The notes beneath the pieces are model-generated. The model was not told the DNA's origin and did not search any database. It saw nothing but the letters and a program-made list of their open reading frames with translations. A DNA stretch of 64,000 nt, taken from Nonlabens spongiae (GTDB taxonomy: Bacteria; Bacteroidota; Bacteroidia; Flavobacteriales; Flavobacteriaceae). The DNA lies in assembly GCF_002117125.1 (NCBI RefSeq), contig NZ_CP019344.1, positions 992,001 to 1,056,000 of the forward strand, in the 5' to 3' direction. A program made the position numbers and the translations under genes. Below are positions 5,418 to 60,019 of this stretch, one piece after another. Positions within the stretch are counted from its first letter, which is position 1. The number at the start of each line of letters is the position of its first letter.

Positions 5418-5433
5418 CGCTTTCGCGAAAGCG
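5418..5433. repeat. CGCTTTCGCGAAAGCG palindrome, intergenic
   Basis: Exact 16-bp palindrome in the 298-bp gap between the VOC gene and the S41 peptidase gene. The rest of that gap shows no other structure that I can support. Confidence 0.95.
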
Positions 5434-5603
5434 GAATTATCAAAATCCTAATTCTTAAATACAATCATAATATCCTTTATCCAGCTACCGAGCTTAAGTT
5501 TCAGTACGTAGGAAAATGAAAAGTCACAGACCAGTCTAGCCTGCGACCTTTAAAAAAATCTTTGCGATTTATCAAATCAGATAATGATGAATTTTAGCAA
5601 CAT

Positions 5604-6884
5604 TTACTGTGCAACCAGATCATAGTTTCTGGATTTGGATTTGATAAACTCTTGAGTCTGGGTAATCCAGTCTCTTTTTAAATCCAGCTCTATGTCAACA
5701 GATATTCCCCTTTCTTCATACTCTAGCAAGTAAGAATAATCCATATCAGTTTTCATGAAGTAAAACAAACCAGACGCTGATACTGCTGCGTTACCATAAT
5801 TACTGCCGTAAGCACAAGCTCCCCAAGAGTCACGCCCCAAAAGGGTTACGTTATCAAATTTTGTCAAGTAGTCTGCCGTGATCTCTGCGTTGCTGGCTGA
5901 GTTTTTATTAAGAAGTACAAATACCTGATTCTTCTTAGCAAATTTACGGATGAGCTTTTTCCAAGGCTTGGCCACCTTATCTGCTCCTCCAATGTTATTG
6001 CGTAGATCCACGATCAAATTTTCACTGTCTATTTTTCCTTTCACCTCATCGTAAAGCGCTCGAGACTCTGAAACATTATCAGACATTCTAGAAAAACTCC
6101 CAAGTCTCAAGTAACCGGTCTCACTATCAAGCTTTTCATAGCTGAATGTAGCAGCGTCAGAACCAACTTGGTCAAAATGATCAGGAGTTTCTAATTTTTT
6201 GAAGTTTGAGATAAAGAATCGTCCGTTTTCAAAGACTTCATTTCTCAATGCATACCAGACCTTGTGATCTGGATGAGCTAGGATAAGTTGGTAACGATTG
6301 GCTTCAATACGATCAAAGTAAGCATACACCATCCCCTTTTCCCAAACCGGAGACTCTGAGTCTAAAACGATCGCTTGGTAGGAGCCTGCATCTATCTCCG
6401 TAACTGCAACCGTTACTATTTGATTAGAATAAACACCTTGCGCGCTAGATTGATCAACCGCTTGAGCAAATGTTTTTAAAGAATCAATATTTACATCAAG
6501 TCTGGGAAGCGATTTGAAATATAAAGAGGCTTTTAAAAGCTTTAAATTTTCAGGATCTGTAAGCTTCTGACTTTTTTCTATATCAAAACCTTTCATCCTT
6601 AGTGAGGCATGTTCATCTTTTATCTGAGCTGCGAGCTGCGAGATTATTTGTAGACACTCTATAGAGCTTTCGGATCCAGAGATTTCACTTTTCAGGTTAT
6701 GAAACAAATTCTGGTAGGCTAGCTTATCCTTTTTATTAAACTGATCTTTGAATGAGATTAAGTTTTGAGATTCTTGGTAATAAAAATCAAGCTCAGCCTT
6801 GCAATCGCAAGCAACTTTTTGAGCGTTTACTAATGATAGGTTTAAAATGAAAAATAATGCGGTGTAGATGAATGTAGTTCTCAT
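5604..6884 (-). CDS. Exported S41-family (C-terminal processing type) peptidase
   Basis: Serine peptidase-like protein of about 426 aa. The upstream in-frame Met at 6905 is possible, but the Met at 6884 opens directly into a signal peptide (MRTTFIYTALFFILNLSLVNAQ), so I chose it. The C-terminal TSPc-like domain shows LIVDLRNNIGG (about residue 293) and LLNKNSASNAEITAD (about 325), where the SASxAE motif contains the expected nucleophile Ser. No PDZ domain is obvious between the signal peptide and the catalytic region, unlike classic CtpA. It probably acts in the periplasm or is secreted. The family call is good; the substrate is unknown. No terminator is visible downstream. Confidence 0.8.
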   Translation of the reverse strand: MRTTFIYTALFFILNLSLVNAQKVACDCKAELDFYYQESQNLISFKDQFNKKDKLAYQNLFHNLKSEISGSESSIECLQIISQLAAQIKDEHASLRMKGFDIEKSQKLTDPENLKLLKASLYFKSLPRLDVNIDSLKTFAQAVDQSSAQGVYSNQIVTVAVTEIDAGSYQAIVLDSESPVWEKGMVYAYFDRIEANRYQLILAHPDHKVWYALRNEVFENGRFFISNFKKLETPDHFDQVGSDAATFSYEKLDSETGYLRLGSFSRMSDNVSESRALYDEVKGKIDSENLIVDLRNNIGGADKVAKPWKKLIRKFAKKNQVFVLLNKNSASNAEITADYLTKFDNVTLLGRDSWGACAYGSNYGNAAVSASGLFYFMKTDMDYSYLLEYEERGISVDIELDLKRDWITQTQEFIKSKSRNYDLVAQ

Positions 6885-6983
6885 GGGTTTCGTTTTTAAT
6901 GACACCCCAAAAATGAAACTGCACCCTTCATCTCAAAGATTGAAATCTATGAAACGGGAAATTGTATCGATGAAATTGGTTTT

Positions 6984-7020
6984 AAAATAATAAACCCACC
7001 AGCTCAATCCAGCTGATGGG
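6984..7020 (-). terminator. Rho-independent terminator of the enoyl-CoA hydratase gene
   Basis: On the minus strand, CCCATCAGCT pairs imperfectly with AGCTGGTGGG and is followed by the T-rich tract TTTATTATTTT. It sits just downstream of the hydratase stop codon. Confidence 0.7.
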
Positions 7021-7045
7021 CATTTATATTGACAAGTTATAAAAT

Positions 7046-7798
7046 TTATTTAAACCTCTTCAAAGTCTCCTTAGTAAACTCGCTTAATACTAATCTGCCT
7101 GAAATCTTAGCTCTCTCGGCCAGCAACTCATCCCAATTTTCACAACCAGTCCAGAACATTTTCTTCATTTCTTTCATGGCCTCGGGATTGTATTGCGTTA
7201 ATGCTTTCGCGAAAGCGGAAACATGTTCATCCATCGCCTCAGTACTCTCAAAAATCTCTGCAAACAATCCGTTTTGATGCGCCCACTCAGCAGGGTAGAA
7301 TTCATTTGCATTTATGGCGATCTGGCTCATGCCACTCAATCCCAATTTGCGCTCAACTGCCGGCCCCACTACAAACGGCCCAATCCCTATATTGAGCTCA
7401 CTTAGTTTGATGGCTGCAAATTTTGTGGCAAAGCAATAATCTGTTGCACTGGCAACTCCTACTCCACCTCCTACAGTTTTTCCTTGTACGCGACCTATGA
7501 TGAACTTAGGACACTTGCGCATCGCATTGATCACATTTGCAAAACCAGAGAAAAAAACCTCACCGGTTTTCTCGTCATCTATGGCGATCAATTCCTTAAA
7601 ACTTGCACCTGCGCAAAATGTGCGATCCCCACCAGATTTTAGGATAATTACTTTACAACCGTCATCGTTGCCTGCCTTTTTGATCGCATTAGCTAGATCT
7701 GAAAGTACATTTCCTGGCAGGGAATTGTGTGCTGGATGAAAAAACTCTATGGTGGTTACCGCTTCTTGTGTTGTAGATTTTACGTAGGGTGCCGTCAT
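7046..7798 (-). CDS. Enoyl-CoA hydratase/isomerase (crotonase) family protein
   Basis: A 250-aa crotonase-fold protein acting on acyl-CoA thioesters in the cytoplasm. The first oxyanion-hole segment is TFCAGASFKEL (about 60-70) and the second is GKTVGGGVGVASATDYCFA (about 104-122). The catalytic Glu of the second position is present (KLSELNIGIGP), but the Glu that normally follows the GGG motif is Gly/Val here, so a classical two-Glu hydratase mechanism is doubtful. It could be an isomerase-type or methylglutaconyl-CoA hydratase-like member. A palindrome copy encodes SAFAKAL near residue 195. It is monocistronic, with its own terminator. PaaZ lies 7 kb away, but no paa cluster is visible. Confidence 0.85.
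   Translation of the reverse strand: MTAPYVKSTTQEAVTTIEFFHPAHNSLPGNVLSDLANAIKKAGNDDGCKVIILKSGGDRTFCAGASFKELIAIDDEKTGEVFFSGFANVINAMRKCPKFIIGRVQGKTVGGGVGVASATDYCFATKFAAIKLSELNIGIGPFVVGPAVERKLGLSGMSQIAINANEFYPAEWAHQNGLFAEIFESTEAMDEHVSAFAKALTQYNPEAMKEMKKMFWTGCENWDELLAERAKISGRLVLSEFTKETLKRFK
7203..7216. repeat. GCTTTCGCGAAAGC palindrome inside the hydratase gene
   Basis: Exact 14-bp core, read on the minus strand as AFAKA within SAFAKAL of the crotonase-family protein. Confidence 0.95.
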
Positions 7799-7831
7799 TT
7801 ATGTTAGATTTTATTATGCTCTGCAAGAAAC

Positions 7832-7864
7832 AAAAAAGCCCGATCATTTAAAAACGATCGGGCT
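7832..7864 (-). terminator. Rho-independent terminator of the OmpA lipoprotein gene
   Basis: Stem AGCCCGATC / GATCGGGCT with a 10-base AT-rich loop. On the minus strand it is followed by TTTTTTG, directly downstream of the OmpA-family stop codon. Confidence 0.9.
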
Positions 7865-7888
7865 ACTTATAAAGCTAACTTTCTTAAT

Positions 7889-8749: not shown

Positions 8750-8761
8750 AATGTTTATCAT

Positions 8762-9122: not shown

Positions 9123-9950
9123 TTATTCAGAAAGTGTGACCGTGCGAGTTACTTGATTAAAAGGTCCTTCAATGGTATTGCCGTCTGCATCTATGAGCTC
9201 TAGCATAATTTTCACCTCACCCATTTCAAGCCCATTGATTACATGTGGGGCCCACTCGGTAATCATAAATTCCTCACCGTTGATGGTTGCTCGTACTTTA
9301 TTACCGTTCTCAGATAGCGTGGTATTCAAAACGAAAAAATCCAATAACAAGTTCTCCGTATCCTTTCCTTTATACTCTCCTTTAGGACGGCTGTAGATTA
9401 AAGTTGGTGCCTCCATATCATACTTAGATTGTTGATCTACGCTATTCCCAACCGTAATTTTTTTGACCACCATTGAGTTGTCGTTTTTGACAGACTCGTG
9501 ATAAGAACGACTCAGGAATGCAACTAGGTGGTGGGTCCCATCTGGTATCGCTTTCGCGAAAGCGGACTCATAATGAGCACTATACGGTTGATTATTCAAA
9601 ATGAAATGAATGTGCTGGCCTTTACCTGAATTTGCCAAACTTTCTGTGTTAGGACTGTCAGTTTGAGCGGTCAACTCATAGTTCTGAACATTGAAATTGA
9701 ATTTAACCTCACCAGAAGGCAATTTAACCGAGGTATCTGGAGCAGTAAGCTCTAGACTGGCTGTTTCATAAGCTGGAGAATCAGTCAGTTTTGACAAAGT
9801 AATGGAACTTGAAGTTTCCTCTTCCATCATTACCTCTTCTTCGGTCATGTCCTTCTCATCTGCTTCATTTGCTTTATCGTTATTCTTACAAGAGAAAAAT
9901 AACAATGAACAAATTGCCATTGTTAATAGACTTTTTGATGTAGTTTTCAT
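9123..9950 (-). CDS. Uncharacterised lipoprotein with acidic linker
   Basis: A 275-aa lipoprotein with an SPII signal ending LLFFSC (Cys 21), then a very acidic low-complexity linker (about 24-48, rich in Glu and Met). The globular part contains GKGQHIHFILNNQPYS and PDGTHHLVAFLSRSYHESVK, which resemble the GxHxHxxxDxxP / GxHxLxA pattern of small secreted beta-sandwich domains (DUF4399-like). A palindrome copy encodes SAFAKAI at about residues 133-138, between those two motifs. The protein is probably exported to the periplasm or outer membrane. I do not recognise a defined function. Confidence 0.75.
   Translation of the reverse strand: MKTTSKSLLTMAICSLLFFSCKNNDKANEADEKDMTEEEVMMEEETSSSITLSKLTDSPAYETASLELTAPDTSVKLPSGEVKFNFNVQNYELTAQTDSPNTESLANSGKGQHIHFILNNQPYSAHYESAFAKAIPDGTHHLVAFLSRSYHESVKNDNSMVVKKITVGNSVDQQSKYDMEAPTLIYSRPKGEYKGKDTENLLLDFFVLNTTLSENGNKVRATINGEEFMITEWAPHVINGLEMGEVKIMLELIDADGNTIEGPFNQVTRTVTLSE
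9549..9564. repeat. CGCTTTCGCGAAAGCG palindrome inside the lipoprotein gene
   Basis: Exact 16-bp copy, read on the minus strand as AFAKA in ESAFAKAI. Confidence 0.95.
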
Positions 9951-9970
9951 AGTAATTTTTTTTGTTGTAT

Positions 9971-9978
9971 CAAAACTA
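9971..9978 (-). promoter_or_regulatory. Candidate -7 box of the lipoprotein gene
   Basis: The minus strand reads TAGTTTTG, matching the Bacteroidota -7 consensus TAnnTTTG, 21 bases before the start codon. No TTG lies at the expected 17-23 base distance upstream, so support is partial. Confidence 0.4.
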
Positions 9979-11078: not shown

Positions 11079-13298
11079 TTAGAAAGTCGCACTTACGCGA
11101 GCTCTTAAGAAAAACGGTGTTCCCGGTGTGAAATGAATCTCCTCAACCGGCTGAGCTTCGTTTCTTAGACGGCTTTCAGTGGCAAATTGTGTTTCCTTCC
11201 ACTCTACATCAAATAAATTTTCTACGATAAGACCAAAAGTGTAGTTCTTATAGGTATAATTGATATTTGCATCAGTGACAAAATATCCTTCGGCTACAAT
11301 AGAGTTATCTTCATTTGCAGGTCGATCTCCTAAAAAGCGGTAATTGATACCTCCTGAGAAATTATTGAAGTTTTGAACATTCACACCACCCGTCACTGTA
11401 AAGTCTGGAGCAAGTGGAATCAAATCCTCCCCATCTGGCTCATCGATCGCTCTGGCATATGTATAGGTCGCATCTCCATAAAAGTATAACCAAGGTAAAG
11501 GCTCATACCTAAGACCTAAGTCGACTCCTGTCCTTCTCGTTTTACCACTAGGCTCTACAATCCCAGCATCACCTACATAAACAAATTCTTGCTCTAAGAA
11601 TAAGTACCACAAAGCAGCATTAAAAACGAGCTTATCTGTAACCTTAAAAACAGATCCCAAATCAGCACCATAAGCGGAAGGCAAAATATCCTTGCCCTGA
11701 TTAGCTACTACCACTCTGGTATCATTTGAATGAAAACCTATACCGGTTTTAGCAAAAAGCTGAAGCCGGTCTGTGGGAGTATAAATCAAATTAAGCTTAG
11801 GACTGAAGGTAAATTTATCTTCACTTAAAGTCTCATATTCCTCTACAAGGTTGTCTACATAGTCAAATTTGAAATAGTCCAAACGCAATCCTGAATTCAG
11901 CTTAAAGTCTCCAAATTCAAATTCTGTATTTACGAAACTGTAGAAATTAGTTTCATCTACATCTCCAAATGCGAGACGCTCAAGCAGTTCTTTGCGGTTT
12001 GCGGTGCGGCTCAACTGAATATCGTCTACGTTATCGTAGCGCAATCCTATACCTGCATCATAAGCAAAACCTGTATTCCCATTATAAAATTTATCACTCA
12101 AGACGGTTTGAAAACCGTAAGTATTGCGATCTTCAAATTGTCTAATTTGATCTCCATTAATCGGATCTTCTAGGAAAAAGGTAAAGTTTGAGAATAGCTC
12201 AAAATCATACTGAGAGTAAAACGCCCGTGATGTGAGCTTTTGAGAATCGGTTAGAAAGCGTTCATGTTCAATGAGGACATTGGTCCGGCTGGTCTGTCCG
12301 CCTTCTGTGTCATCTATTGCACCAAATCGTGATATCAAACCTTGATCTACAGCCCTTTGAGGAATTTGTCCTGAAGCATCCCATTTACTGGTAAATCGAA
12401 ATAGCGTCAAGGTAAGCTCTTCGTCCTTTCTTATTTTATAGTTGTATTTTCCTAAAATATTGAATCGGTTGAAGTTCTGTGAAGATTCAAATGGACCATC
12501 TGTTATGTAATAAGAAGTGGCAACATAGGCACTACTCTTTTGCGTATCTAACAATTTGAATTGCCCTACGGTTCGGAAACTGTCAAATCCACCATACTCA
12601 AGCGATACACTGTTCTGATTGATTCTTTTACTAGTTCTGAAACCTACATAACCTGCAGTATTAAAATTACCTTGATTAGTATAATATGGCCCTTTACCAA
12701 ATTCAATCGCTTCTATAGTTTCAGGTATTACAAAGTGCAGATCTGAATAACCTTGACCATGTGCGTGTGATACCTGATTCACTGGAATACCGTCTACATT
12801 GATTGCTACATCAGTACCGTGATCCACGTCGAAGCCTCTCAGGAAAATTTGTTCTGCTTTACCACCGCCGGCGTGCTGACCTATAAAAAGGCCTGGAACT
12901 CTCCTTAAAATCTCTTGTGATGACCGTACCGGATTATTCTGAACATCAATTGCCACAATCTTTTCTAAGGTGTTCAAGTCCTTATTGATCTGGATCTCAG
13001 TTAATGATATGTCTGAACGTATCAGAACAACACTGAGCTGTCCGTTAATATTTTGTGAGTTGACGACTACAGTTTTTGTCTCGTAGCCTATATAGGAAAA
13101 TATAAGTTGATCGCCCGTTTGAATGTCACTGAACGTAAAGCCACCATTTGAATTTGTAGATGTTGCCATTTCAGTTCGAGAATTTTTCACGCTAACATCT
13201 TGAAGCGGGACGCCACCGGCATAGACCACGCCTTCTATATTTTGAGATGAACCTAGTAAAGGTAGAAGTGTAAATAGTAAGTATAAATAATATTTCAT
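11079..13298 (-). CDS. TonB-dependent outer-membrane receptor (probable metal-related)
   Basis: A 739-aa receptor with a signal peptide (1-19, LLGSSQ). A CarboxypepD_reg-like domain follows (about 20-95, IEGVVYAGGVPLQDVSV...SYIGYET), then a plug (about 110-215, with FLRGFDVDHGTDVAINVDG and SHAHGQGYSDLHF) and a beta-barrel ending in Phe (RARVSATF). The plug His cluster (VSHAHGQGYSDLH) and the His-rich small gene immediately upstream suggest metal or metallophore uptake. That substrate is inference from context only. It lies 150 bp downstream of the His-rich gene on the same strand and is probably co-transcribed. Length is typical of the family. Confidence 0.88.
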   Translation of the reverse strand: MKYYLYLLFTLLPLLGSSQNIEGVVYAGGVPLQDVSVKNSRTEMATSTNSNGGFTFSDIQTGDQLIFSYIGYETKTVVVNSQNINGQLSVVLIRSDISLTEIQINKDLNTLEKIVAIDVQNNPVRSSQEILRRVPGLFIGQHAGGGKAEQIFLRGFDVDHGTDVAINVDGIPVNQVSHAHGQGYSDLHFVIPETIEAIEFGKGPYYTNQGNFNTAGYVGFRTSKRINQNSVSLEYGGFDSFRTVGQFKLLDTQKSSAYVATSYYITDGPFESSQNFNRFNILGKYNYKIRKDEELTLTLFRFTSKWDASGQIPQRAVDQGLISRFGAIDDTEGGQTSRTNVLIEHERFLTDSQKLTSRAFYSQYDFELFSNFTFFLEDPINGDQIRQFEDRNTYGFQTVLSDKFYNGNTGFAYDAGIGLRYDNVDDIQLSRTANRKELLERLAFGDVDETNFYSFVNTEFEFGDFKLNSGLRLDYFKFDYVDNLVEEYETLSEDKFTFSPKLNLIYTPTDRLQLFAKTGIGFHSNDTRVVVANQGKDILPSAYGADLGSVFKVTDKLVFNAALWYLFLEQEFVYVGDAGIVEPSGKTRRTGVDLGLRYEPLPWLYFYGDATYTYARAIDEPDGEDLIPLAPDFTVTGGVNVQNFNNFSGGINYRFLGDRPANEDNSIVAEGYFVTDANINYTYKNYTFGLIVENLFDVEWKETQFATESRLRNEAQPVEEIHFTPGTPFFLRARVSATF

Positions 13299-13448
13299 TT
13301 TATAATTGTTGGAATCGATAACTTAGAACTTCGTGCAGATAGTAGTTGCATGAAAGAACTAAACCCATCGATTTGAGTATAAGGGAGAAAATGCCATTCT
13401 TGAGAACCAAGAAGCATTTGAAAAAGCAACTTTTGCAGTCGCTATTGG

Positions 13449-13874
13449 TTAGGCAAGGTGTTTGGGCGGCGGAGCCGGAGTACTCTCAAAGAAAACATTC
13501 CAAGAATCAAAATACCAGAAATGATGTGAATGGTTATAAGAAGGAATAAATAAACTAGGGTACTCTTGAGCTACAAGAACTTTTACGTTCTTGCTTATTT
13601 TAATGATTAATTGAGAATCATCTTCATGATCATTACCATCAAAAAGCTTTTTAATGAACGACAATACACCATGATCGTGTTCACAATTGCTATGAGAAAT
13701 CAGTAATCTCCTTCCCATGCTTGAACCAGTGGAAAAATCATGATTATGCGAGTCGTCTGAAACCGTTAGAGAATGTGACCATACATGCAGACCATCAATT
13801 ACTGAAGTGCTGATAGTTGCCATAAAACAGCACATAGCAAGTAAAATCGTAAAAATCCTCGTTATATTGAGCAA
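13449..13874 (-). CDS. Small exported His-rich protein upstream of TonB receptor
   Basis: A 141-aa protein with an N-terminal hydrophobic segment (about 5-30, likely a signal peptide or single TM). Histidine-rich clusters follow: SHNHD, SNCEHDHG, NDHEDD and NHSHHF. The C-terminal tail is Pro-rich (TPAPPPKHLA). The His/Asp/Cys pattern is that of a metal-binding periplasmic protein, and the gene sits directly upstream of a TonB receptor whose plug also carries a His cluster. Similar short His-rich proteins with a PPP tail precede TonB receptors in other Bacteroidota, to my general knowledge. I infer a metal-sensing or metal-shuttling role; the ion is unknown. Confidence 0.65.
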   Translation of the reverse strand: MLNITRIFTILLAMCCFMATISTSVIDGLHVWSHSLTVSDDSHNHDFSTGSSMGRRLLISHSNCEHDHGVLSFIKKLFDGNDHEDDSQLIIKISKNVKVLVAQEYPSLFIPSYNHSHHFWYFDSWNVFFESTPAPPPKHLA

Positions 13875-13939
13875 CAGTTCAAATTTGTTTTGATTACTTA
13901 TAGGTACGCAAGATAGGCCTCTATGGTTTGACAGATGAT

Positions 13940-14050
13940 TTAAAGTAGTCCAAACTGCTCAAAATGGTGATTCATGTGCTTGCGCTTAATTGAATAGCTC
14001 TCATTTATACTTAAATTCTCAAAATAGCAAAATATGTTGCTTATAGTAAG
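13940..14050 (-). pseudogene. Remnant copy of the PaaZ-fusion 3' end
   Basis: Read on the minus strand, this fragment encodes [20 protein letters not shown] followed by a TAA stop. It aligns with [20 protein letters not shown] at the C-terminus of the PaaZ fusion gene at 14547. The first 37 bases (from 13950) match 14581 onwards with one mismatch, and similarity then decays over about 80 bases. There is no start codon or upstream domain, so it is a truncated duplicate. It ends at FGLL, while the intact gene runs on to [12 protein letters not shown], so the remnant may keep the older stop position. Confidence 0.8.
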
Positions 14051-14188
14051 TAATATAGTTTTTTTACTATCTGCATTTTAAATATTATTTTTAGTAAATT
14101 GATTTTCTAAAATATTTTGATTCAATTGGATATAGGTCGAAATTATGTAAGACAGTATTTCAAATTTGGAATTTTTAATATCATAACT

Positions 14189-14485
14189 ATGAAAGTAATT
14201 AGTAATCAAAATTTTAGCATGTTAGATCTCAGAATAGCAATTGCACTTTTTGCTACAATTTTGTTTTGGGCTTTAACCTACATTCCATATTTAGTACAAG
14301 GATCTTACGTAAGCATAATTTTGCAACTTCTTTGGATACCGGCATTGATATATCCCCTTTTCTCGTTCATCTACTTTTTAGTCCAATGGATTAAGAAGAG
14401 TATGAATTTTAGTGAACCACATCTATATTTCGCTGTGCTATCCTCTAGTACTTATTTTCTAGCTTTCGGCGAGAAGTTATTTTAG
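14189..14485 (+). CDS. Small integral membrane protein of unknown function
   Basis: About 98 aa, starting at the Met at 14189 (MKVISNQNFSMLDLRIA). A longer in-frame start at 14117 would add 24 residues, but this start gives a clean cytoplasmic N-terminus. There are two or three hydrophobic segments (about 17-36, 42-66 and 82-92 by eye). No domain is recognised. The gene is AT-richer than its neighbours. It lies on the opposite strand, between the PaaZ-end remnant (13940-14050) and the intact PaaZ 3' end, which suggests it arrived with or was caught by a local duplication. It could be a real gene or a relic. Confidence 0.5.
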   Translation: MKVISNQNFSMLDLRIAIALFATILFWALTYIPYLVQGSYVSIILQLLWIPALIYPLFSFIYFLVQWIKKSMNFSEPHLYFAVLSSSTYFLAFGEKLF

Positions 14486-14546
14486 CCAATTAAAATGGAT
14501 CTGGTATAGGTTAATATCAATTGAAACTAGATAGGAATTTGTAGAT

Positions 14547-17132
14547 TCAGCTATTAATGTGGCCATTATTTTTAATTAACCCAAACTGCTCAAAATGGTG
14601 ATTCACGTGCTTGCGCTCGAGTAAATACCACTCATATTTATTTAATTCACCAAAAACAGCATTTTTAGTTGTTGCTTTTGGCTTCTTCTTGAAGAAATCC
14701 AGATAGTTTTGTCTTGATTCGAGCAATTTTTTAATCGCGGTATCCACATCAGGATGCTGCAATTCTTCCAGTTCACCGTCTTCTCTCATGAGCGGCATGC
14801 GGTGATTTTGGGGCATTTTATCATAATTCCACAAAGTTGCAGCAGTCTTTTCTAGGTACTTTTCTGGAGTAGCGATTTCAAAGTTTTGAATCTCTCCAGA
14901 TGCAATTCGGTAGCCTTGCTCGAGGTGCTCGATCATGTGTTGCAAGGTCATTTTGCCCCATTTGGGTTTGATATTTTCAGGAGCTTTCCCTTCGGCTCCG
15001 CTCAGGGCACGCGCGAAAGCGGACTTAATTAAATCTTCATCGATCTCGACAAAGGTTTGCTGTTTCTTCTCTACCATCGTTAGTATGGTCGCTACGGCAA
15101 CAAGGGACTCTGCCTCTTCATCTGTCTTGTCATTTTCATAGTCCACAGGTTCTGCATCAAAAACCTCCACATACCATTTCACAATACCCGATGGATGCTC
15201 GCGACCGGACACGTCACGCTCTCTTTTTTCTTTACAAGTTAGTCGCACGTAGATTGTGTCATTGTGGTACAATGGACGTAAGAATCTAATATCTTCCAAA
15301 CCATAATTTGCAGACACCGGTCCCTTGTTAGGATACACAAAAAGTCCAGCAGCAGCACTGATGATAAAGTAACCGTGAGCGGTTCTTTTCTTAAAAATAC
15401 TACCATCAAGACTGGTGATATCAGTATGTGCGTAGAAATGGTCCCAAGTCAGATTTGCAAAATTCTGTATATCGGTATCGGTCAGAGTGCGCTTGTGGGT
15501 TTGCAAACTCATTCCCGGTTTGATATCCTCATAATGATAAGCAAATGGGTGTTTTTCAGCTTCTTTATAGTCGCCATTCGGCTGGTAAATACCTGTCACT
15601 TCAGTTAGAGTCGTAGGACTACCCTGCACGGCACAGCGTTGCATGAAATGTTTGATTCCTCGCAAACCTCCCATTTCCTCTCCTCCACCGGCACGTCCCG
15701 GACCACCGTGAACCAGTAATGGTAAAGGTGAGCCATGACCAGTGGATTGTTTGGCACTGTCTCTATTTAGGACTAAGATACGTCCATGGTGTGAAGCGGC
15801 TTCTATAGTGTACGCTTTCGCGAAAGCGTCATCTCCAGTTACCACACTGCTAACTAACGAGCCTTTACCCATTTGAGCCAACTCGATCGCCTCGTCAATG
15901 CCTTTGTACGGCATGATCGTACTCACCGGACCAAAAGCCTCTATTTCATGAGCACCCAAGTTCTTGAACGGCTCATCCTCCCGCATTAAGATCGGCGAAA
16001 CGAAAGCACCTTTTTGCGCATCGGCCCCAATGACTTCTACCTCATCAAGATTACCGTAAACGATTTGAGCAGTCTGAGCAATTTTATTTATCTGATCTTT
16101 TAAGGTCTCTCGCTGATCTGTATTAATCATAGCACCCATGCGGGTTTCTTTGAGCCTTGGGTCTCCTATAACGGTGCGCTCGAGTTGCTTACCGAGGGCG
16201 ATTTGCACCTCTTCAACAAGGTTCTCCGGCACAATTACCCTACGTATGGCGGTACACTTCTGACCACATTTTACGGTCATTTCCTTGCGAACTTCTTTTA
16301 TAAATAGATCGAATTCTGGTGTACCTGGCACGGCATCATCACCCAGCACACATGCATTCAAGCTATCTGCTTCCATCGTGAATGGGACACTTTCTTGAAG
16401 AAGTCTAGGATGATTTTTGAGTTTACGACCGGTTGCCGCACTACCTGTAAAAGTTACTACGTCTTGAGATTCAACGGTATCCAGAATATTTGTTGTCAAT
16501 CCTGATAATAGCTGTAAACTACCTTCAGGCAAAATACCACTGCTGATAATTTCACGAACAACCGCCTCAGTCAAAAAGGCTGTTTGAGGTGCTGGAAGTA
16601 CTACGGCGGGCATACCTGCCATCCAATTTACCGCACATTTTTCCAACATTCCCCAAACCGGGAAATTAAACGCGTTTATGTGTACAGCCACACCTTTTTT
16701 AGGAACAAGTAAGTGATGTGCCATAAAGCGGCCTCCTCGTGATAGATCAATAGGGTCACCTTCTACCGCATAAGACTGATCTGGAAAAAGCTTTCTCAAG
16801 CTAGCATTTGCAAAAAGATTTCCAAAACCACCCTCGATATCGATCCAGCTATCGACTCTCGTCGCGCCAGTTTTATAAGATATTTCATAAAAATGCTCTT
16901 TCCTTTTTGTGAGATAAAGAGCTAGTTTTTTAATCATATTCCCTCGTTGCTGGAAGGTCATATCTCTCAACACCTTCCCATGGTCACGCCCATATTGCAA
17001 GGTCGTAGCGATATCTAAGCCTGATGTACTAGTTGCACCAATGATTTCACCAGTTACGGCATCAAACATATTTCTGGTTTCAGAGTTATCACCGGTTTGC
17101 CAGTTTCCTTGAATGTAAGAGGGAAGAATCAT
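14547..17132 (-). CDS. paaZ: PaaZ-type bifunctional dehydrogenase/hydratase fused to a DinB/DUF1569-like domain
   Basis: An 861-aa protein with three parts. Residues about 1-510 are an aldehyde dehydrogenase (general-base Glu in FTMEADSLN, about 253; nucleophile Cys in [12 protein letters not shown], about 290). Residues about 535-680 are a MaoC-like hydratase ([17 protein letters not shown]). Together these match PaaZ, which opens oxepin-CoA and oxidises the resulting semialdehyde in phenylacetate breakdown. Residues about 690-861 are an extra domain with [19 protein letters not shown] and [14 protein letters not shown], the helical signature of DinB/DUF1569 proteins. PaaZ is usually about 680 aa, so this is a C-terminal fusion. 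Two genome-repeat pieces lie in the linker (14990-15021), and a palindrome sits in the dehydrogenase (DAFAKAY). No other paa gene is in the window. The 3' end is duplicated at 13940. Confidence 0.85.
14581..14661. repeat. Direct-repeat partner of 13950-14030
   Basis: The 3' end of the PaaZ fusion gene. The outer 37 bases match 13950-13986 with one mismatch. The two copies bracket about 550 bp containing the small membrane-protein gene. Confidence 0.8.
14990..15021. repeat. Repeat-derived segment in the PaaZ interdomain linker
   Basis: CTTCGGCTCCGCTCAGGGCA resembles the intergenic CTTCGACTCCGCTCAG element at 61952. It is followed at once by a half-copy of the palindrome (GCGCGAAAGCGG). Together they encode [14 protein letters not shown] on the minus strand, just before the DinB-like domain. 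Confidence 0.6.
15813..15828. repeat. CGCTTTCGCGAAAGCG palindrome inside paaZ
   Basis: Exact copy, read on the minus strand as AFAKA in [11 protein letters not shown] of the aldehyde dehydrogenase part. Confidence 0.95.
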
Positions 17133-20959: not shown

Positions 20960-20975
20960 CGCTTTCGCGAAAGCG
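20960..20975. repeat. CGCTTTCGCGAAAGCG palindrome upstream of aldo/keto reductase
   Basis: Exact copy. Here the symmetry extends three bases further on each side (TCT / AGA), making 22 bp. It lies about 38 bases before the reductase start codon, near where a promoter would be expected. Confidence 0.95.
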
Positions 20976-28956: not shown

Positions 28957-28972
28957 CGCTTTCGCGAAAGCG
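28957..28972. repeat. CGCTTTCGCGAAAGCG palindrome between convergent genes
   Basis: Exact copy, 60 bases past the TonB receptor stop and 9 bases before the stop of the cysteine desulfurase gene. No T-run follows, so it is not a standard terminator. Confidence 0.95.
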
Positions 28973-31106: not shown

Positions 31107-31620
31107 ACTTATAAAAAACCACCTCAGTTGCTCCGTAACCAAAACGCTTATAATCAGCATCGTGGTAATTGATACTAGTCTTACCATTTAGGAAATGATG
31201 CAATTCTTTTTTAAGTTTTCCCTTTCCTACTCCGTGTATGAGGATTACTTTTTTAATTCGTTTTGACTCAGCTTCTTCGAGGGCAGATTTGGCTCGATCA
31301 AGTTGCGCGACTACCTTTTCATGATTAGTCATGTTTGAAGTATGGGAAACCACTTCGTGCAAATGTAAATCTACAACCATCTCATCAATATTGGTCAGGC
31401 CTTTTGGACTGCTTGCCGGTTCAGTGGATTGATCTTGTATAGGTGTTTCAAATTCAAAATCGCCTGACAAAATAAGCTGACTCGCCGGTCTGGTATGTTC
31501 AAATCCATGCTCGCAAATGAAGGTTATCTGTTTCGCTTTCGCGAAAGCGAAATTCCCACATAGATCTTCATCGATCACACAAACCAGATCACCTGGTTTG
31601 AGCTGGTCAATCTTGATCAT
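31099..31620 (-). CDS. Smr-domain protein
   Basis: About 173 aa with a C-terminal Smr domain: MVVDLHLHEV (about 80-90) and ILIHGVGKGKLKKEL (about 126-140). Smr domains act on nucleic acids in the MutS2 and Smr families. The N-terminal third (GDLVCVIDEDLCGNF) resembles the beta-barrel of DUF2027-type Smr proteins in Bacteroidota. The start at 31620 (MIKIDQLKPGD) is preferred over the Met at 31662 because it overlaps the preceding small gene by only 14 bases. A palindrome copy encodes FAFAKAKQ near residue 30. Its role may be in repair or translation quality control. Confidence 0.85.
   Translation of the reverse strand: MIKIDQLKPGDLVCVIDEDLCGNFAFAKAKQITFICEHGFEHTRPASQLILSGDFEFETPIQDQSTEPASSPKGLTNIDEMVVDLHLHEVVSHTSNMTNHEKVVAQLDRAKSALEEAESKRIKKVILIHGVGKGKLKKELHHFLNGKTSINYHDADYKRFGYGATEVVFYKFS
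31534..31549. repeat. CGCTTTCGCGAAAGCG palindrome inside the Smr gene
   Basis: Exact copy, read on the minus strand as AFAKA in GNFAFAKAKQ. The flanking bases extend the symmetry (TTT / AAA). Confidence 0.95.
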
Positions 31621-37525: not shown

Positions 37526-37541
37526 CGCTTTCGCGAAAGCG
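37526..37541. repeat. CGCTTTCGCGAAAGCG palindrome upstream of the DEAD-box gene
   Basis: Exact copy in the gap between two divergent genes, about 98 bases before the helicase start codon and 106 bases from the carboxylase start. Confidence 0.95.
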
Positions 37542-41875: not shown

Positions 41876-42844
41876 ATGCTGAAAGCGGGAGTGCTGGGTG
41901 CGGGTCATCTGGGCAGGATCCACCTGAGATTGTTGAACGAGAGCGAGCGTTATGAGCTTGTGGGATTTTATGATGCAGATCCTCAACATGCAAAACAAAT
42001 TGAAAAGGAGTACGGCTATACCTATTTCAGCGATGTAGATAAGCTTATCGCAGCCTGCGACATGATCGATGTGGTCACCCCTACTTCCTACCACCATGAG
42101 AGTGGCGTAAAAGTTCTAGATGCCGGCAAGCACCTATTTATTGAAAAACCCATCACGGTAACTGTAGAGGAGGCGCAGGAATTGATCTCGCTTTCGCGAA
42201 AGCGGAATCTCAAAGGACAAGTAGGACAAGTCGAGCGATTCAATCCAGCTTTTAAAGCCGTAAGTTCCCGCATAGATCAGCCCATGTTCATAGAAACGCA
42301 CCGCCTGGCAGAGTTCAACCCGCGTGGAACGGACGTAAGCGTGGTACTGGATCTCATGATCCACGATATCGATGCGATTCTAAGTGTCGTGGACAGTAAG
42401 GTAAAACATGTGAGTTCCAGCGGAGTCGCCGTAATCTCAAACACGCCAGACATTGCTAACGCTCGTATTGAATTTGAAAACGGCTGTGTGGCAAACTTGA
42501 CCGCGAGTCGCATAAGTCTGAAAAAAATGCGTAAGGCGCGCTTCTTCCAGCGAGATGCCTACATATCAGTTGATTTTCTAACCAAGGCCGTAGAAGTGGT
42601 ACGCATGAAAGATGCACCAGAAGATCGTGGTGATTTTGACATGATTCTTAAAAATGCTGAAGGCGTAGAGAAACAGATCTATTTTGACAATCCTAAGATT
42701 GAAGAAAACAACGCCATTTTAGATGAGCTAGAAACCTTTGCCGATGCGATCGAAAACGACACCGAGCCTGTGGTAAGTCTAGAAGATGGTACAGCAGCAC
42801 TCGATGTTGCCCTACAGATTATCAAAAACTTTAAAGAACTTTAA
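41876..42844 (+). CDS. Gfo/Idh/MocA family oxidoreductase
   Basis: A 322-aa NAD(P)-dependent oxidoreductase. The Rossmann motif is GVLGAGHLGRIHLR (about 5-18), the EKP motif is FIEKPITVTVEEA (about 90-102) and the C-terminal domain is of the Gfo/Idh type. Substrate unknown; sugars or inositol-like molecules are usual for the family. A palindrome copy encodes LSRKRN near residue 107. A 3-hydroxyacyl-CoA dehydrogenase gene follows 34 bases later, probably co-transcribed. Confidence 0.9.
   Translation: MLKAGVLGAGHLGRIHLRLLNESERYELVGFYDADPQHAKQIEKEYGYTYFSDVDKLIAACDMIDVVTPTSYHHESGVKVLDAGKHLFIEKPITVTVEEAQELISLSRKRNLKGQVGQVERFNPAFKAVSSRIDQPMFIETHRLAEFNPRGTDVSVVLDLMIHDIDAILSVVDSKVKHVSSSGVAVISNTPDIANARIEFENGCVANLTASRISLKKMRKARFFQRDAYISVDFLTKAVEVVRMKDAPEDRGDFDMILKNAEGVEKQIYFDNPKIEENNAILDELETFADAIENDTEPVVSLEDGTAALDVALQIIKNFKEL
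42189..42204. repeat. CGCTTTCGCGAAAGCG palindrome inside the Gfo/Idh gene
   Basis: Exact copy, in the phase that reads LSRKR on the plus strand. Confidence 0.95.
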
Positions 42845-45483: not shown

Positions 45484-45497
45484 GCTTTCGCGAAAGC
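45484..45497. repeat. GCTTTCGCGAAAGC palindrome between SDR and SRP RNA
   Basis: Exact 14-bp core. It lies 25 bases before the SDR start codon and just past the 3' end of the SRP RNA gene. Confidence 0.95.
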
Positions 45498-45691: not shown

Positions 45692-46744
45692 ATGCATTTG
45701 AAAAAAGCCGTCCTACTGCTGGTTCCCGTCTTGATTTTAACGGCCTGCAGAACTGAAGAAGAGCTGTTTACAAAAAATTTTTCTGTGACCGTAGAAAACT
45801 CTAAATCCAGTTGGAAAACGGGTGACGAGATCAAACTTAGTGTCAGTGAGGAAGAAAATATGGATGTGGATAGCGTGATATGGAAGCAAAATGCACGTAG
45901 AATCGAGGGGGCTGATGGTATGACGCTTTCGCGAAAGCTAACAGAAAACGATCCACTGGGCTACCTCACCTACTCTGCTCATATTTATAAGGACGGTCGT
46001 GAGGCAGTAGCGCGTGCTGCGGTAAAAAGATTGAATCCGCAAAAGCCGAAAATCTATAAATACCGTGTTAAGAATACGTATCCTCATGATGTAGCAAGTT
46101 ATACTCAAGGCTTGGAGTTTTATGGTGACTCTTTATATGAGAGTACCGGTCAGTTTAACGAAAGTGACCTACGCATCACAAATGTGGAAACGGGAGAAAC
46201 GATCAAGAAAATAGACCTACCCAGCAGTCAGTTTGCTGAGGGCATGACGATCATGAATGACAAGATTTATCAGCTTACCTGGCAAAGCGAGATCGGTTAC
46301 ATCTATGACCTTGGCCTGAATAAAGTAGGCGAATTTGCTTATAACGAGAGTAAAGAAGGCTGGGGACTGACTAATGATGGGGAGAAACTCTACAAAAGCG
46401 ACGGTTCTGATAAAATATGGATCATAGATCCCGAGACCTTTAAAGAAGAGGGGTACATTCAAGTGGTTTCTAATAAAGAAGTCTACAAAAAAATAAACGA
46501 GCTTGAATTTATAGATGGTAAGATTTACGCAAATGTCTATCAGCAAAATGTGATCTTCATCATTGATCCCAAAACTGGAGGTATTGAAGCTGCGATTGAC
46601 TTGCGTACCTTAAAAGAAGAAATTCCCAACTATAGTAGCAATGACAACGTACTTAACGGTATCGCTTACGATAAGAAAAACGATCGTCTTTTTGTGACGG
46701 GTAAGCGCTGGGAGAAGATGTTTGAGATTGAGGTGTTGAAATAA
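45692..46744 (+). CDS. Glutaminyl-peptide cyclotransferase (glutamine cyclotransferase) lipoprotein
   Basis: A 350-aa lipoprotein with SPII lipobox LILTAC (Cys 19). Residues about 20-110 form a separate beta-rich N-terminal module. From about 120 to 350 the sequence is a beta-propeller glutamine cyclotransferase (YPHDVASYTQGLEFYGDSLYES, FAEGMTI, EGWGLTNDGE, INELEFIDGKIYANVY, NVLNGIAYD). It converts N-terminal Gln into pyroglutamate and protects exported proteins. A palindrome copy (MTLSRKLTE) sits in the N-terminal module. Confidence 0.9.
   Translation: MHLKKAVLLLVPVLILTACRTEEELFTKNFSVTVENSKSSWKTGDEIKLSVSEEENMDVDSVIWKQNARRIEGADGMTLSRKLTENDPLGYLTYSAHIYKDGREAVARAAVKRLNPQKPKIYKYRVKNTYPHDVASYTQGLEFYGDSLYESTGQFNESDLRITNVETGETIKKIDLPSSQFAEGMTIMNDKIYQLTWQSEIGYIYDLGLNKVGEFAYNESKEGWGLTNDGEKLYKSDGSDKIWIIDPETFKEEGYIQVVSNKEVYKKINELEFIDGKIYANVYQQNVIFIIDPKTGGIEAAIDLRTLKEEIPNYSSNDNVLNGIAYDKKNDRLFVTGKRWEKMFEIEVLK
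45924..45939. repeat. Palindrome copy inside the cyclotransferase gene (CGCTTTCGCGAAAGCT)
   Basis: The exact 14-bp core with one flanking mismatch. Read on the plus strand in the LSRK phase. Confidence 0.9.
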
Positions 46745-50470: not shown

Positions 50471-50486
50471 CGCTTTCGCGAAAGCG
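50471..50486. repeat. CGCTTTCGCGAAAGCG palindrome between convergent genes
   Basis: Exact copy, in the 103-bp gap between the DUF808 and PagL-like gene ends. Confidence 0.95.
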
Positions 50487-52879: not shown

Positions 52880-52895
52880 CGCTTTCGCGAAAGCG
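52880..52895. repeat. CGCTTTCGCGAAAGCG palindrome upstream of rel
   Basis: Exact copy in the 184-bp gap before the rel gene, 107 bases from its start codon. Confidence 0.95.
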
Positions 52896-55207: not shown

Positions 55208-55213
55208 GATATT

Positions 55214-55681: not shown

Positions 55682-56952
55682 TGGCTGTAGATCTACTGCT
55701 CGGACTTCAATGGGGAGACGAGGGAAAAGGAAAGATTGTTGACGTACTCACCTCAAATTACGATATCATAGCGAGATTTCAGGGTGGGCCCAATGCTGGA
55801 CACACACTGGAATTTGACGGGATAAAGCACGTATTGCGAACCATCCCAAGTGGTATTTTTCATGAAGACAGCATAAACATTATCGGTAATGGTGTGGTGA
55901 TCGACCCAGTGGTTTTTGTTCAAGAACTAGATGGATTGGATCAATTTGATATCGATTACAAGAAAAATTTGAAGCTTTCGCGAAAAGCGCACCTCATACT
56001 GCCCACACACAGGCTGCTTGATGCAGCTAGCGAGACCTCAAAAGGAAAAGCTAAGATAGGCTCGACCCTTAAAGGAATAGGTCCTACCTATATGGACAAA
56101 ACCGGTCGTAATGGGATACGCCTAGGTGATCTGGAAATGAAGGGCTGGAAGGACAAGTACAGGGCATTGGCTAACAAGCACGAAGCGCTGATCAGTTTTC
56201 ACGATGTGGATATTCAGTACAATCTTCCTGAACTTGAAGAAGAGTTTTTTGCAGCAGTAGAACGTTTAAAAGAATTAGACTTTATCGATTCTGAAGAATT
56301 TCTACAAAAAGCTCAAAAAAATGGTAAAACCATACTTGCTGAGGGCGCTCAAGGAAGTTTGCTCGACATCGATTTTGGAACTTATCCATTTGTGACGTCA
56401 AGTAACACTACTGCAGCTGGTGCCTGTACTGGTTTGGGAGTTTCTCCACGACAGATCGGTGAGGTTTTTGGAATTTTCAAAGCCTACACCACACGAGTGG
56501 GTAGTGGCCCCTTCCCTACGGAACTTTTTGACGAAGTAGGCGGCAAAATGGCTAAAGTAGGTCATGAATTTGGCGCGGTAACGGGTCGTCCCAGACGTTG
56601 CGGCTGGCTGGATCTCGTTGCTTTGAAATATACCTGTCAGGTAAACGGAGTTTCCCAACTCATGATGATGAAGGGAGACGTGCTTTCAGGATTTGATGAG
56701 TTGAAAGTATGTACTGCCTACAAATACAACGGTGAAGAAATATACCACCTGCCCTACAACATTGAATCGGACAAGTTGGAGCCTGTCTACACCACCTTAC
56801 CATGTTGGAAAGAGGACTTGACCCAAATGCAATCTGCAGATCAGTTTCCAAAAGAGTTGAATAATTACATAGACTTCCTTGAAAAAGAATTGGAAATCCC
56901 GATCAAGGTGGTAAGCGTAGGACCTGATCGTAAGCAGACTATTCACAGATAA
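55681..56952 (+). CDS. purA: Adenylosuccinate synthase
   Basis: A 423-aa enzyme that joins IMP and aspartate using GTP (EC 6.3.4.4). Motifs: QWGDEGKGKIVDVL (about 9-22), GGPNAGHTLEFDG (about 38-50), STLKGIGPTYMDKTGRNGIR and GSGPFPTEL. The Lys/His catalytic residues are within these. A variant palindrome (GCTTTCGCGAAAAGCG) encodes LSRKAH near residue 100. Gene order rel-fur-purA is compatible with a co-regulated unit. Confidence 0.96.
   Translation: MAVDLLLGLQWGDEGKGKIVDVLTSNYDIIARFQGGPNAGHTLEFDGIKHVLRTIPSGIFHEDSINIIGNGVVIDPVVFVQELDGLDQFDIDYKKNLKLSRKAHLILPTHRLLDAASETSKGKAKIGSTLKGIGPTYMDKTGRNGIRLGDLEMKGWKDKYRALANKHEALISFHDVDIQYNLPELEEEFFAAVERLKELDFIDSEEFLQKAQKNGKTILAEGAQGSLLDIDFGTYPFVTSSNTTAAGACTGLGVSPRQIGEVFGIFKAYTTRVGSGPFPTELFDEVGGKMAKVGHEFGAVTGRPRRCGWLDLVALKYTCQVNGVSQLMMMKGDVLSGFDELKVCTAYKYNGEEIYHLPYNIESDKLEPVYTTLPCWKEDLTQMQSADQFPKELNNYIDFLEKELEIPIKVVSVGPDRKQTIHR
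55974..55989. repeat. Variant palindrome copy inside purA (one inserted A)
   Basis: GCTTTCGCGAAAAGCG differs from the family by one extra A in the right arm. The frame reads LSRKAH, so the insertion or its absence in other copies is not frame-critical by itself. Confidence 0.7.
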
Positions 56953-57014
56953 ATGCATCTATCGAATAACAATAATTCTCGCATCCTAAGATTACTAGCA
57001 ATTAATGTGATTGA

Positions 57015-58232: not shown

Positions 58233-58234
58233 TT

Positions 58235-58903
58235 ATGAGTGATATAGTAACTTCTTTATCTCGCTTTCGCGAAAGCGTACCTGAAAACGTCACCCTCGTA
58301 GCCGTAAGTAAAACAAAACCCAATGAGGATTTGCAAGAGGCTTATGAGGCTGGACAACGGGATTTTGGAGAAAACAAGATTCAAGAAATGACTCAAAAAT
58401 GGGAAGACCTACCTGATGACATTAGATGGCATATGATAGGTCACACCCAGCGCAATAAGGTAAAATATATGGCGCCTTACGTACATCTCGTGCACGGCGT
58501 GGATTCCCCTCGATTGCTCAAGGAGATTAATAAGCAAGCCAAAAAGAACGAGCGCGTAATCGATTGCCTGCTACAAATTCACATAGCGCGAGAGCAAAGT
58601 AAATTTGGTTTTGATGAAGATGAATTAAAAGAATTCCTCAAATCTGACGCTTTCAAGGATTTACAAAACGTGCGCATTAAAGGTCTTATGGGAATGGCCA
58701 CCTTTACTGATAATAAAGATCAGGTAAGAGAAGAGTTCAGAGGCCTTAAAAACTTCTATGAGACCTTGAAAAAAGACATCATCGAGCCACCTCATGAATT
58801 TGACACGCTCAGTATGGGAATGACTGGCGACTACAAAATTGCCATAGAAGAAGGTTCAAATATGATCAGGATAGGAAGCGCGATTTTTGGCGCAAGGAAT
58901 TAA
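58235..58903 (+). CDS. yggS: PLP homeostasis protein (YggS/PROSC family)
   Basis: A 222-aa PLP-binding protein that keeps pyridoxal phosphate balanced. The PLP Lys is in TLVAVSKTKPNE (about 24-35), followed by FGENKIQEM and RWHMIGHTQRNK. A palindrome copy at the N-terminus reads SRFRESVPEN (about 8-17). Length is normal. It ends one base before the convergent gene. Confidence 0.93.
   Translation: MSDIVTSLSRFRESVPENVTLVAVSKTKPNEDLQEAYEAGQRDFGENKIQEMTQKWEDLPDDIRWHMIGHTQRNKVKYMAPYVHLVHGVDSPRLLKEINKQAKKNERVIDCLLQIHIAREQSKFGFDEDELKEFLKSDAFKDLQNVRIKGLMGMATFTDNKDQVREEFRGLKNFYETLKKDIIEPPHEFDTLSMGMTGDYKIAIEEGSNMIRIGSAIFGARN
58262..58277. repeat. CGCTTTCGCGAAAGCG palindrome inside yggS
   Basis: Exact copy in the phase that reads FRES on the plus strand, near the N-terminus and before the catalytic Lys. 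Confidence 0.95.
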
Positions 58904-59566
58904 TTATCTGATCGCGCTGCTGACGTTATAATCAGCAAATTTCTTCATGTAGTATTTAACCGAGGATCCGTATGCATCTCTGCTGGACAACCTACCGTTA
59001 CTATTGAAAAAACGCTTGACGCCGCCAGGACCTGAAAGGTGGGCAGCAGCGAGAATTCCGCTTTCGGTCACCTTTATACCTCCTACCACCTTTCCATCAT
59101 ATTTCTCAATGTAAGATTTGAGATAATCGTGGTTGTAGTTCAAGTACTGATTAAAAACTCTTTCTTGAACACTAGGTGTATTAAGGAATAGAGAAGTGTT
59201 ATAGACACCAAAATGCCTCAAAGTCACCGACCCGAACTGGTATTTTCCCAAATAGCCTAAGCTGTTCACCTGCTGGTAGCGACCCAGCGATTCCTTTCTG
59301 GCGAGAGCTTCCTTAAAAGCTATGTAACCTTTTGAAGGAATAAGGGGTGCCGAGTGATTGTAAAACTGGAAAGATGATGGATCGTAATCATCGCCCGCGT
59401 CATCAACATTAAAAAGCGGTCCTGAAAAATCAGGCTCAAAATCGTCTGCAAAAACCTTTGATTTGCCGAAGTTCTCAGATGAGTCTATTGACACATTTGA
59501 CATTCCAAGGATGGAAAGACCTATCACGACAGGATAGATGAAGAAGATACTTAGTTGTGATCTCAT
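58904..59566 (-). CDS. Exported muramidase-like or transglycosylase-like protein
   Basis: A 220-aa protein with an N-terminal hydrophobic segment (about 5-25). The domain from about 78 to 215 has ALARKESLGRYQQVNSLGYLGK, a Glu-containing helix followed by YQFGSVTLRHFGVYN, and ILAAAHLSGPGGVKRFF, the pattern of lysozyme-like transglycosylases. The Glu of RKESLGRY is a plausible catalytic acid. It likely cleaves peptidoglycan in the periplasm. It is preceded by a full consensus promoter and ends directly against the yggS stop. Confidence 0.75.
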   Translation of the reverse strand: MRSQLSIFFIYPVVIGLSILGMSNVSIDSSENFGKSKVFADDFEPDFSGPLFNVDDAGDDYDPSSFQFYNHSAPLIPSKGYIAFKEALARKESLGRYQQVNSLGYLGKYQFGSVTLRHFGVYNTSLFLNTPSVQERVFNQYLNYNHDYLKSYIEKYDGKVVGGIKVTESGILAAAHLSGPGGVKRFFNSNGRLSSRDAYGSSVKYYMKKFADYNVSSAIR

Positions 59567-59612
59567 AAGTGTTTTTTTCGAAAGCTGCTGTCACCCTTTC
59601 TAAAAAGCCGCG

Positions 59613-59641
59613 CAAAGATACTTCTACATTCTAATCGCAAA
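59613..59641 (-). promoter_or_regulatory. Promoter of the muramidase-like gene
   Basis: On the minus strand, TTTG (59638-59641), 17 bases, then TATCTTTG (59613-59620). Both boxes match the consensus; the leader is about 40-45 bases. Confidence 0.75.
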
Positions 59642-60019
59642 ACAGTTTAATGTTAAATAACGTTATCTAAGACTAAACACTCAAATTTATGTGCTTGTAA
59701 TCACTTGATTAACAATATGTTTGAGCACTATGATAGAATCAATCTAAAAAGAGGGAGATAGTTAATATTATCATAATTTTGGCTTTATTTTAGTCTTAAA
59801 GTAATCCATAATAGTCTGAATAACAAGTTAATGAAAACGTTGTAGTGTCAGATTTTTGAATTCGGGCAGTTCGACTTGAGAATTTGAGATGGAGTTACAG
59901 GGTGATGAGATGGTTTTTACGCTTTCGCGAAAGCGTATTAATGAACTATCTCTACTTATACTATAAGCAAGAAACTTTTGTATGAAATCAATCCTATCTA
60001 TAGCGCCCTGTTTCACCTT
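59642..60019. other. Intergenic region with one palindrome, no gene
   Basis: The divergent gap between the muramidase-like and M42 genes totals 498 bases. Apart from the promoter at 59613-59641, the palindrome at 59920 and the -7 box at 60020, I see no gene. A 68-codon minus frame at 59828-60034 crosses the -7 box and lacks a domain. Confidence 0.5.
59920..59935. repeat. CGCTTTCGCGAAAGCG palindrome, intergenic
   Basis: Exact copy, 129 bases before the M42 peptidase start codon. Confidence 0.95.

Follow-up and report, generated by a model that had tools for sequence, protein, structure and literature searches.

A regularly spaced, highly iterated palindrome in Nonlabens chromosomes and its possible role in DNA self-recognition

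What is the role of a perfect 14-bp palindrome, GCTTTCGCGAAAGC, that recurs about every 4 kb along the chromosome of Nonlabens spongiae? The question arose in a stretch of 64,000 nucleotides (contig NZ_CP019344.1, positions 992,001 to 1,056,000; hereafter the window), which holds 15 exact copies, each at a start reported by an earlier sequence-only reading. No copy arose in 100 dinucleotide shuffles of the window, in agreement with that reading's view that the 14-mer lies far above chance. Our analysis indicates that the copies very probably form a selected and clade-specific system of sites that is read on duplex DNA. By analogy with known systems, they may serve as a signal for DNA self-recognition and uptake, most likely for natural transformation, a role for and against which we find the case evenly balanced.

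The abundance and exactness of the palindrome extend to the whole genome, which holds 779 copies in 3.39 Mb (1 per 4.4 kb; 0 for a reversed-pattern control). An 864-kb sample of this genome, made up of the window and 40 further stretches (41 sampled parts), contains 202 exact, 19 one-mismatch, and 11 two-mismatch copies, counts that were repeated with a second script. Markov models of orders 2–5 predict 0.0007–0.004 exact copies in this sample. Each of the 41 sampled parts contains the motif, at 1–10 copies per 20 kb, and 167/202 copies widen to the 16-mer CGCTTTCGCGAAAGCG (CGC...GCG). Exact copies also outnumber one-mismatch copies in a second Nonlabens genome (40 vs 7 in G410) and in two carriers from other genera (20 vs 5 in G206; 64 vs 22 in G190). 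Within the window there is no copy with exactly one mismatch, and a search allowing up to two mismatches added just two places, 24737 and 55974. The sequence-only reading had listed degenerate copies at 55974, which proved to be the near copy GCTTTCGCGAAAAGC with one extra A (55974..55988), and at 15009, which does not lie within two mismatches of the motif. Neither the 14-mer nor its inner 12-mer was found in a text search of the literature, and no report of the motif stood among the titles listed for Nonlabens, Dokdonia, palindromes, or uptake sequences; both searches had preprints and most subscription journals outside their coverage. The inner 10-mer occurs in ten papers, none of them relevant as judged by titles and the beginnings of abstracts.

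Copies of the palindrome are enriched in intergenic DNA and are not confined there. We called genes with a home-made gene finder, by which genes make up 81% of the 864-kb sample; 112/202 copies lie within called genes and 90/202 outside them (5 of the 90 at stretch ends). Intergenic copies number 55 in 90 kb between co-directional genes, 16 in 22 kb between divergent genes, and 14 in 26 kb between convergent genes, with no class clearly favoured. For the window, these independent rough calls place 8/15 copies in non-coding DNA and two of the eight between convergent genes, the same counts as in the sequence-only reading. Among copies within genes, one reading frame (Ala-Phe-Ala-Lys) is favoured (70/112).

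Spacing between copies is far more regular than expected by chance, a property that had escaped the earlier reading, which correctly described the copies as dispersed about every 4 kb and unclustered. We measured spacing on the first 100 chromosomal places and on the 41 sampled stretches. The first 100 places have a mean gap of 4.2 kb, with a coefficient of variation (CV) of 0.42 when two gaps above 10 kb are left out, and only 2/99 gaps are under 1.5 kb (29.7 expected). Pooled over the 41 stretches, 20/161 gaps are this short, compared with a mean of 56 and a minimum of 39 in 2000 trials of a null that keeps the intergenic preference. Other carriers show similar deficits: 2/41 short gaps in G190 (9.7 in a uniform null, P = 0.0014), 6/93 in a contig of the genus member G397 (26.2 expected; its CV of 0.92 is due to long gaps), and 2/30 in G410, the last a count without a null. 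The window by itself has one short gap where 4.5 are expected, too few gaps for a strong signal. As a yardstick, Chi sites in 200 kb of Escherichia coli K-12 are randomly spaced (44 sites, CV 1.04, 15 short gaps vs 12.7 expected).

High copy numbers are restricted to a few genera, Nonlabens among them. All 23/23 genus members searched, the window's genome included, carry 288–857 copies. Among 397 Flavobacteriaceae genomes drawn from a larger group, six have at least 408 copies, 74 have 1–19 (16–19 in G051, G076, and G287), and 317 have none; the six comprise four Nonlabens together with G206 (857 copies) and G190 (408 copies). The comparison of related genera proposed by the sequence-only reading thus finds the motif abundant in only part of the family. 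In a phylum sample of 395 genomes, the maximum apart from the window's own genome is 6 copies, and outside the family it is 1. We also surveyed 80 loci encoding RelA/SpoT-type proteins and found the motif in 9/9 Nonlabens loci and in a Dokdonia metagenome contig (2 copies in 16 kb), compared with 0/70 others. In the tree of these proteins, G206 forms a fully supported group with the Dokdonia contig, to which G190 is joined with a support of 86; with an arbitrary root, the motif label requires one change (support 94), making a single origin possible. Density in G190 is lower than in Nonlabens (64 exact copies in a 460-kb sample), and its looser consensus and weak flanks look as if the system there were decaying or less strict. 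Seventy loci (4.7–22 kb) of non-carrier genera yielded no other 12- or 14-base palindrome present at least three times that might represent a "dialect," in a scan that would miss motifs rarer than about 1 per 7 kb; what it did return was an AT-rich 10-mer with three occurrences in a single locus and a few nonpalindromic 12-mers that recur.

Many individual copies are stable between species. Orthologue alignments cover 7/15 window sites (8/15 are uncovered) in up to five congeners, for 27/75 possible site–genome pairs. The motif is exact in 13/27 of these orthologous places and has one mismatch in 3/27, compared with 163/8744 identical control 14-mers from the same alignments. Conversely, at position 27154 four congeners carry the motif and the window does not, the place differing by a length change. 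None of the 27 comparisons revealed a clean empty site of motif length; 7/27 aligned segments hold small gaps, and the site at 42190 aligns with G190 without a gap. Given the lack of clean motif-length insertions, copies likely arise by substitution. Sites are not common to the window and G206 or G190 where these could be aligned, and in a 200-kb sample of G410 only one site could be compared. The dispersed and intergenic-enriched palindrome of the earlier reading stands, and we add to it this conservation and the flanks described below.

The preferred sequence extends beyond the core on both sides as a mirror image. Flank tables were built for the left flank (positions −26 to −1) in the own-genome sample and for both sides of 117 copies. 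Reading outwards from the core, a preference for G is followed on each side by one for A at +3/+4 and by an A-tract from +10 to +13, and G is scarce. The preference is similar in G410 (at most 40 sites) and weak in G190, and beyond about 25 bp the flanks of different copies have little common sequence. The left and right flanks of one copy do not co-vary at 12 positions (all 12 |z| under 2), and their complementarity equals that of shuffles. This independence favours two half-sites that are read separately on duplex DNA. Furthermore, 0/202 copies have a palindrome that extends more than 4 bp beyond the core on each side, where about 5 are expected from shuffled flanks; long hairpins may even be selected against. 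Because the flanks do not co-vary and extended palindromes are absent, a hairpin is unlikely to be the target of selection.

These properties recall uptake sequences. In the available portions of two reports, from 2006 and 2025, the only families named as having sequence-based uptake signals are Pasteurellaceae (uptake signal sequences, USS) and Neisseriaceae (DNA uptake sequences, DUS) (PMC1626085; PMC12616744). Their hallmarks, as given in the accessible text of the former, are an excess of perfect over singly mismatched copies, regularity beyond random, preference for non-coding DNA with many coding copies, presence across genus members, conservation from one species to another, an origin through point mutation and, for USS, flanks that are AT-rich on one side (PMC1626085). 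The Nonlabens palindrome is likewise over-represented, with hundreds of exact and few singly mismatched copies, regular spacing, a non-coding preference with many copies in genes, genus-wide presence, stability at many sites between species, and AT-rich flanks, the last as in USS; clean insertions of motif length were not seen in the orthologues covered. The likeness to uptake sequences that the sequence-only reading had raised thus holds for most genomic hallmarks (exactness, spacing, non-coding preference, conservation, and flanks). However, GCTTTCGCGAAAGC differs in being perfectly palindromic, with flanks that mirror each other and no orientation to compare, in its longer core (14–16 bp), and in its occurrence in Bacteroidota. 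We propose that it works like an uptake signal, and we do not class it as USS or DUS because it is palindromic and four times less dense. A different route to telling self DNA apart at uptake is known from Campylobacter jejuni, where, in the part of the account available, the mark is methylation; in Nonlabens the mark would be the sequence itself, and no methyltransferase common to the carriers was found among the four families searched.

One mechanism that would account for these patterns begins with a duplex-DNA recognition site that selection would hold at hundreds of individual places. One copy or more would then be present on most fragments of clade DNA several kb in length, and the transformation machinery would have a receptor that prefers such fragments. 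The reader would be a surface or periplasmic uptake receptor binding as a two-fold symmetric unit, and copies would spread and persist via biased uptake and recombination. Uptake machinery in Nonlabens is plausible from gene content. Natural competence is reported for two Riemerella species, which the authors placed in Flavobacteriaceae, and R. columbina favours DNA of its own kind, with no signal established in the accessible text (PMC7965970); transformation genes of Riemerella anatipestifer, in the portion of the report available, encode among others an outer-membrane barrel and a protein with a DUF5689 domain (PMC8459023). We found DUF5689 in 8/8 carriers and 15/17 non-carriers, and its gene adjoins barrel and nuclease genes in 8 carriers and in 8 non-carriers (the latter picked from those with a match). 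DUF5689 family scores of carriers (136–177 bits) lie below those of most non-carriers (152–222 bits; L347–L369), which may reflect phylogeny alone.

Several observations weigh against an uptake role. Known uptake sequences are described as nonpalindromic in the accessible passages of two reports, one of them on USS (PMC1939737; PMC12616744), and two-fold symmetry suits binding by an intracellular homodimer at least as well. At 1 per 4.4 kb, copies are also sparser than those of USS and DUS, for which the available text gives nearly 1 per kb (PMC1626085). None of the literature titles listed for Nonlabens or Dokdonia reports competence, which leaves experimental competence unsupported. Consensus in G190 is looser (64 exact and 22 one-mismatch copies) and its flanks are weak. 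Individual sites also turn over: the copy at 7203 is absent from 5/5 and that at 45484 from 4/4 congeners covered. Finally, we considered the DUF5689 locus as the source of motif specificity and rejected it. The DUF5689/barrel/nuclease locus shows no carrier-typical residue pattern, with one diagnostic column in each of the three proteins, and because it is also common where the motif is lacking, it does not explain the specificity.

Some of the same evidence suits other explanations. A possible, if doubtful, alternative is that copies of the palindrome, some 4 kb apart, are bound inside the cell by a homodimeric protein that thereby organises, tethers, or compacts the nucleoid. Palindromic or near-palindromic sites of chromosome-organising proteins include parS and those of Noc and SlmA as well as matS; these number in the tens, whereas GCTTTCGCGAAAGC occurs in hundreds along the whole sampled chromosome. 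Two-fold symmetry, flanks that act as independent half-sites, regular spacing, the lack of clear preference among intergenic classes, and copies in every sampled part of the chromosome all fit such a protein, and Karlin and co-workers, as reported in the available part of PMC1939737, proposed roles in replication, repair, or compaction for USS from their even spacing. However, intracellular regulatory proteins seldom have sites whose consensus is all-or-none, according to the accessible text of PMC1626085, and we found no candidate protein, in an analysis that did not extend to a whole-genome comparison of gene content. Regularity also bears on whether the palindrome, in the manner of Chi, halts or diverts a recombination nuclease, acting from both sides by virtue of its symmetry. 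Its density is near that of E. coli Chi, but Chi is randomly spaced in the 200-kb sample described above. Known Chi sites are short and asymmetric, and a 14–16 bp duplex palindrome with distant A-tract flanks would be unlike a site read on an unwound strand; we consider this explanation improbable.

Still less probable is a palindrome of the type of highly iterated palindrome 1 (HIP1), which an orphan DNA methyltransferase would create or maintain, for instance via methyl-directed mismatch repair. HIP1 (GCGATCGC) and the alternate cyanobacterial HIPs are likewise dispersed, highly iterated palindromes of unknown function, and it is this part of the sequence-only comparison with HIP1 that stands. 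End-base mismatches are common here (positions 1 or 14 in 7/19 one-mismatch copies of the window's genome; 10/22 in G190), as the available text reports for HIP1 (PMC4390886), which also describes HIP sequences as accompanied by methyltransferases. PF02384 methyltransferases do occur in 9/10 carriers, G190 being the exception, but PF00145 and PF01555 each lack a match in 4/8 carriers and PF02086 occurs in just 2/10. None of these four families, the only ones searched, is common to every carrier tested, and a methylation system of the HIP type is not supported. Furthermore, GCTTTCGCGAAAGC is longer and rarer than the HIPs, and TCGCGA occurs elsewhere than in the motif as often as expected (141 observed, 141.8 expected). 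It is also unlikely that the palindrome is a single mobile repeat, a terminator, or a hairpin, and we rank lowest of all the idea that it forms a hairpin, ends transcription, or has been copied round the genome as a short transposable repeat, such as a repetitive extragenic palindrome (REP) or a miniature inverted-repeat transposable element (MITE). The palindrome can fold, with an RNA fold z-score of −4.4 at 28958, and 14/202 copies lie between convergent genes; however, z-scores at the six sites tested vary from −0.8 to −4.4, 112/202 copies are within called genes, and the flanks show neither co-variation nor extended symmetry, bearing out the earlier view that a simple terminator role is insufficient. 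As for REP or MITE copies, flanks have little in common past about 25 bp and the orthologues covered show no clean motif-length insertion, arguing against the descent of all copies from one mobile element that the sequence-only reading had considered.

If GCTTTCGCGAAAGC is an uptake signal, it would be the first sequence-based one in Bacteroidota and the first anywhere with a palindromic site, and a receptor serving the barrel/DUF5689 machinery would read it symmetrically on the duplex; otherwise it would be a chromosome-wide set of sites about 4 kb apart that has no known counterpart, and we lean toward neither side of this statement. An uptake role would make it an independent, palindromic case of DNA self-recognition that evolved convergently, and would help to trace the receptor of a machinery about whose surface step little is known. 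A nucleoid site would instead represent a system of sites spaced with unusual regularity along a bacterial chromosome.

The 15 window copies illustrate both the placement and the stability of the motif. Seven lie within genes. The copy at 7203..7216, missing from all congeners covered, is in an enoyl-CoA hydratase-like gene, and that at 9550..9563 is in a gene without a Pfam match. The copy at 15814..15827, within an aldehyde dehydrogenase/MaoC gene, is exact in four congeners and has one mismatch in a fifth, and the next genic copy (31535..31548) is in an Smr-domain gene. At 42190..42203, within a GFO/IDH/MocA oxidoreductase gene, two of five congeners are exact, two have one mismatch, and one has two. 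Copies in a glutamine cyclotransferase gene (45925..45938) and in an alanine racemase N-domain gene (58263..58276) are exact in 3/3 and 3/4 congeners covered, respectively. Among intergenic copies, those at 5419..5432 and 52881..52894 lie between co-directional genes and those at 28958..28971 and 50472..50485 between convergent genes. The remaining four are between divergent genes: 20961..20974 (exact in the only congener covered), 37527..37540, 45484..45497 (the second site missing throughout), and 59921..59934.

Small clusters of exact copies also occur in genera that are not carriers (L177 in G078, L174–L176 in G337, L178–L179 in G087, L180 in G201, L181 in G101, and L182–L183 in G012), several of them with homologous flanks. 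A pair of copies 933 bp apart recurs in at least four family genomes and in one more of the phylum sample. In L177, the sole cluster annotated, the copies sit among metal-efflux genes encoding an AcrB-type pump, HlyD, P-type ATPases, and a multicopper oxidase. We set aside the possibility that such clusters form an element with its own reader, since with this content of metal-efflux and copper oxidase genes the copies in L177 are more simply read as a trace left by an earlier stay in a carrier genome. The cluster suggests gene flow out of the motif clade, and with metal-efflux genes of another genus carrying it, the motif may trace gene flow whether it serves uptake or the nucleoid.

Phages and motif-poor regions provide a further view of mobile DNA. 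Two Nonlabens phages (L271 and L272; 71 kb) contain 0 copies, compared with about 16 at host density, and a scan of viral contigs matched at least 120 stretches, most of the 80 listed having one copy each. The two phages avoid GGCC (0 vs 69.9 expected), as does the host sample (909 vs 1337), and the phages also avoid CCGG (4 vs 70.8) and CGCG (19 vs 88.4); this avoidance suggests restriction. Among the motif-poor stretches of the chromosome that were annotated, one of 20 kb, free of the motif, carries three transposase genes, and another of 14 kb, with a motif-free gap of 13 kb, carries one; neither of the two contains a match to RNA families. Another motif-poor stretch of the window's genome (L335; 1 copy in 20 kb) carries a large Cas9 gene at 11961–16574, encoding 1537 aa with RuvC III, HNH, and bridge-helix domains. 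The second contig of this genome (L171; 13,959 bases) holds two motif copies, and its tyrosine-recombinase-like open reading frame at 5917–6768 adjoins small unrelated frames, an arrangement that, by eye from the list of open reading frames, is reminiscent of an integron.

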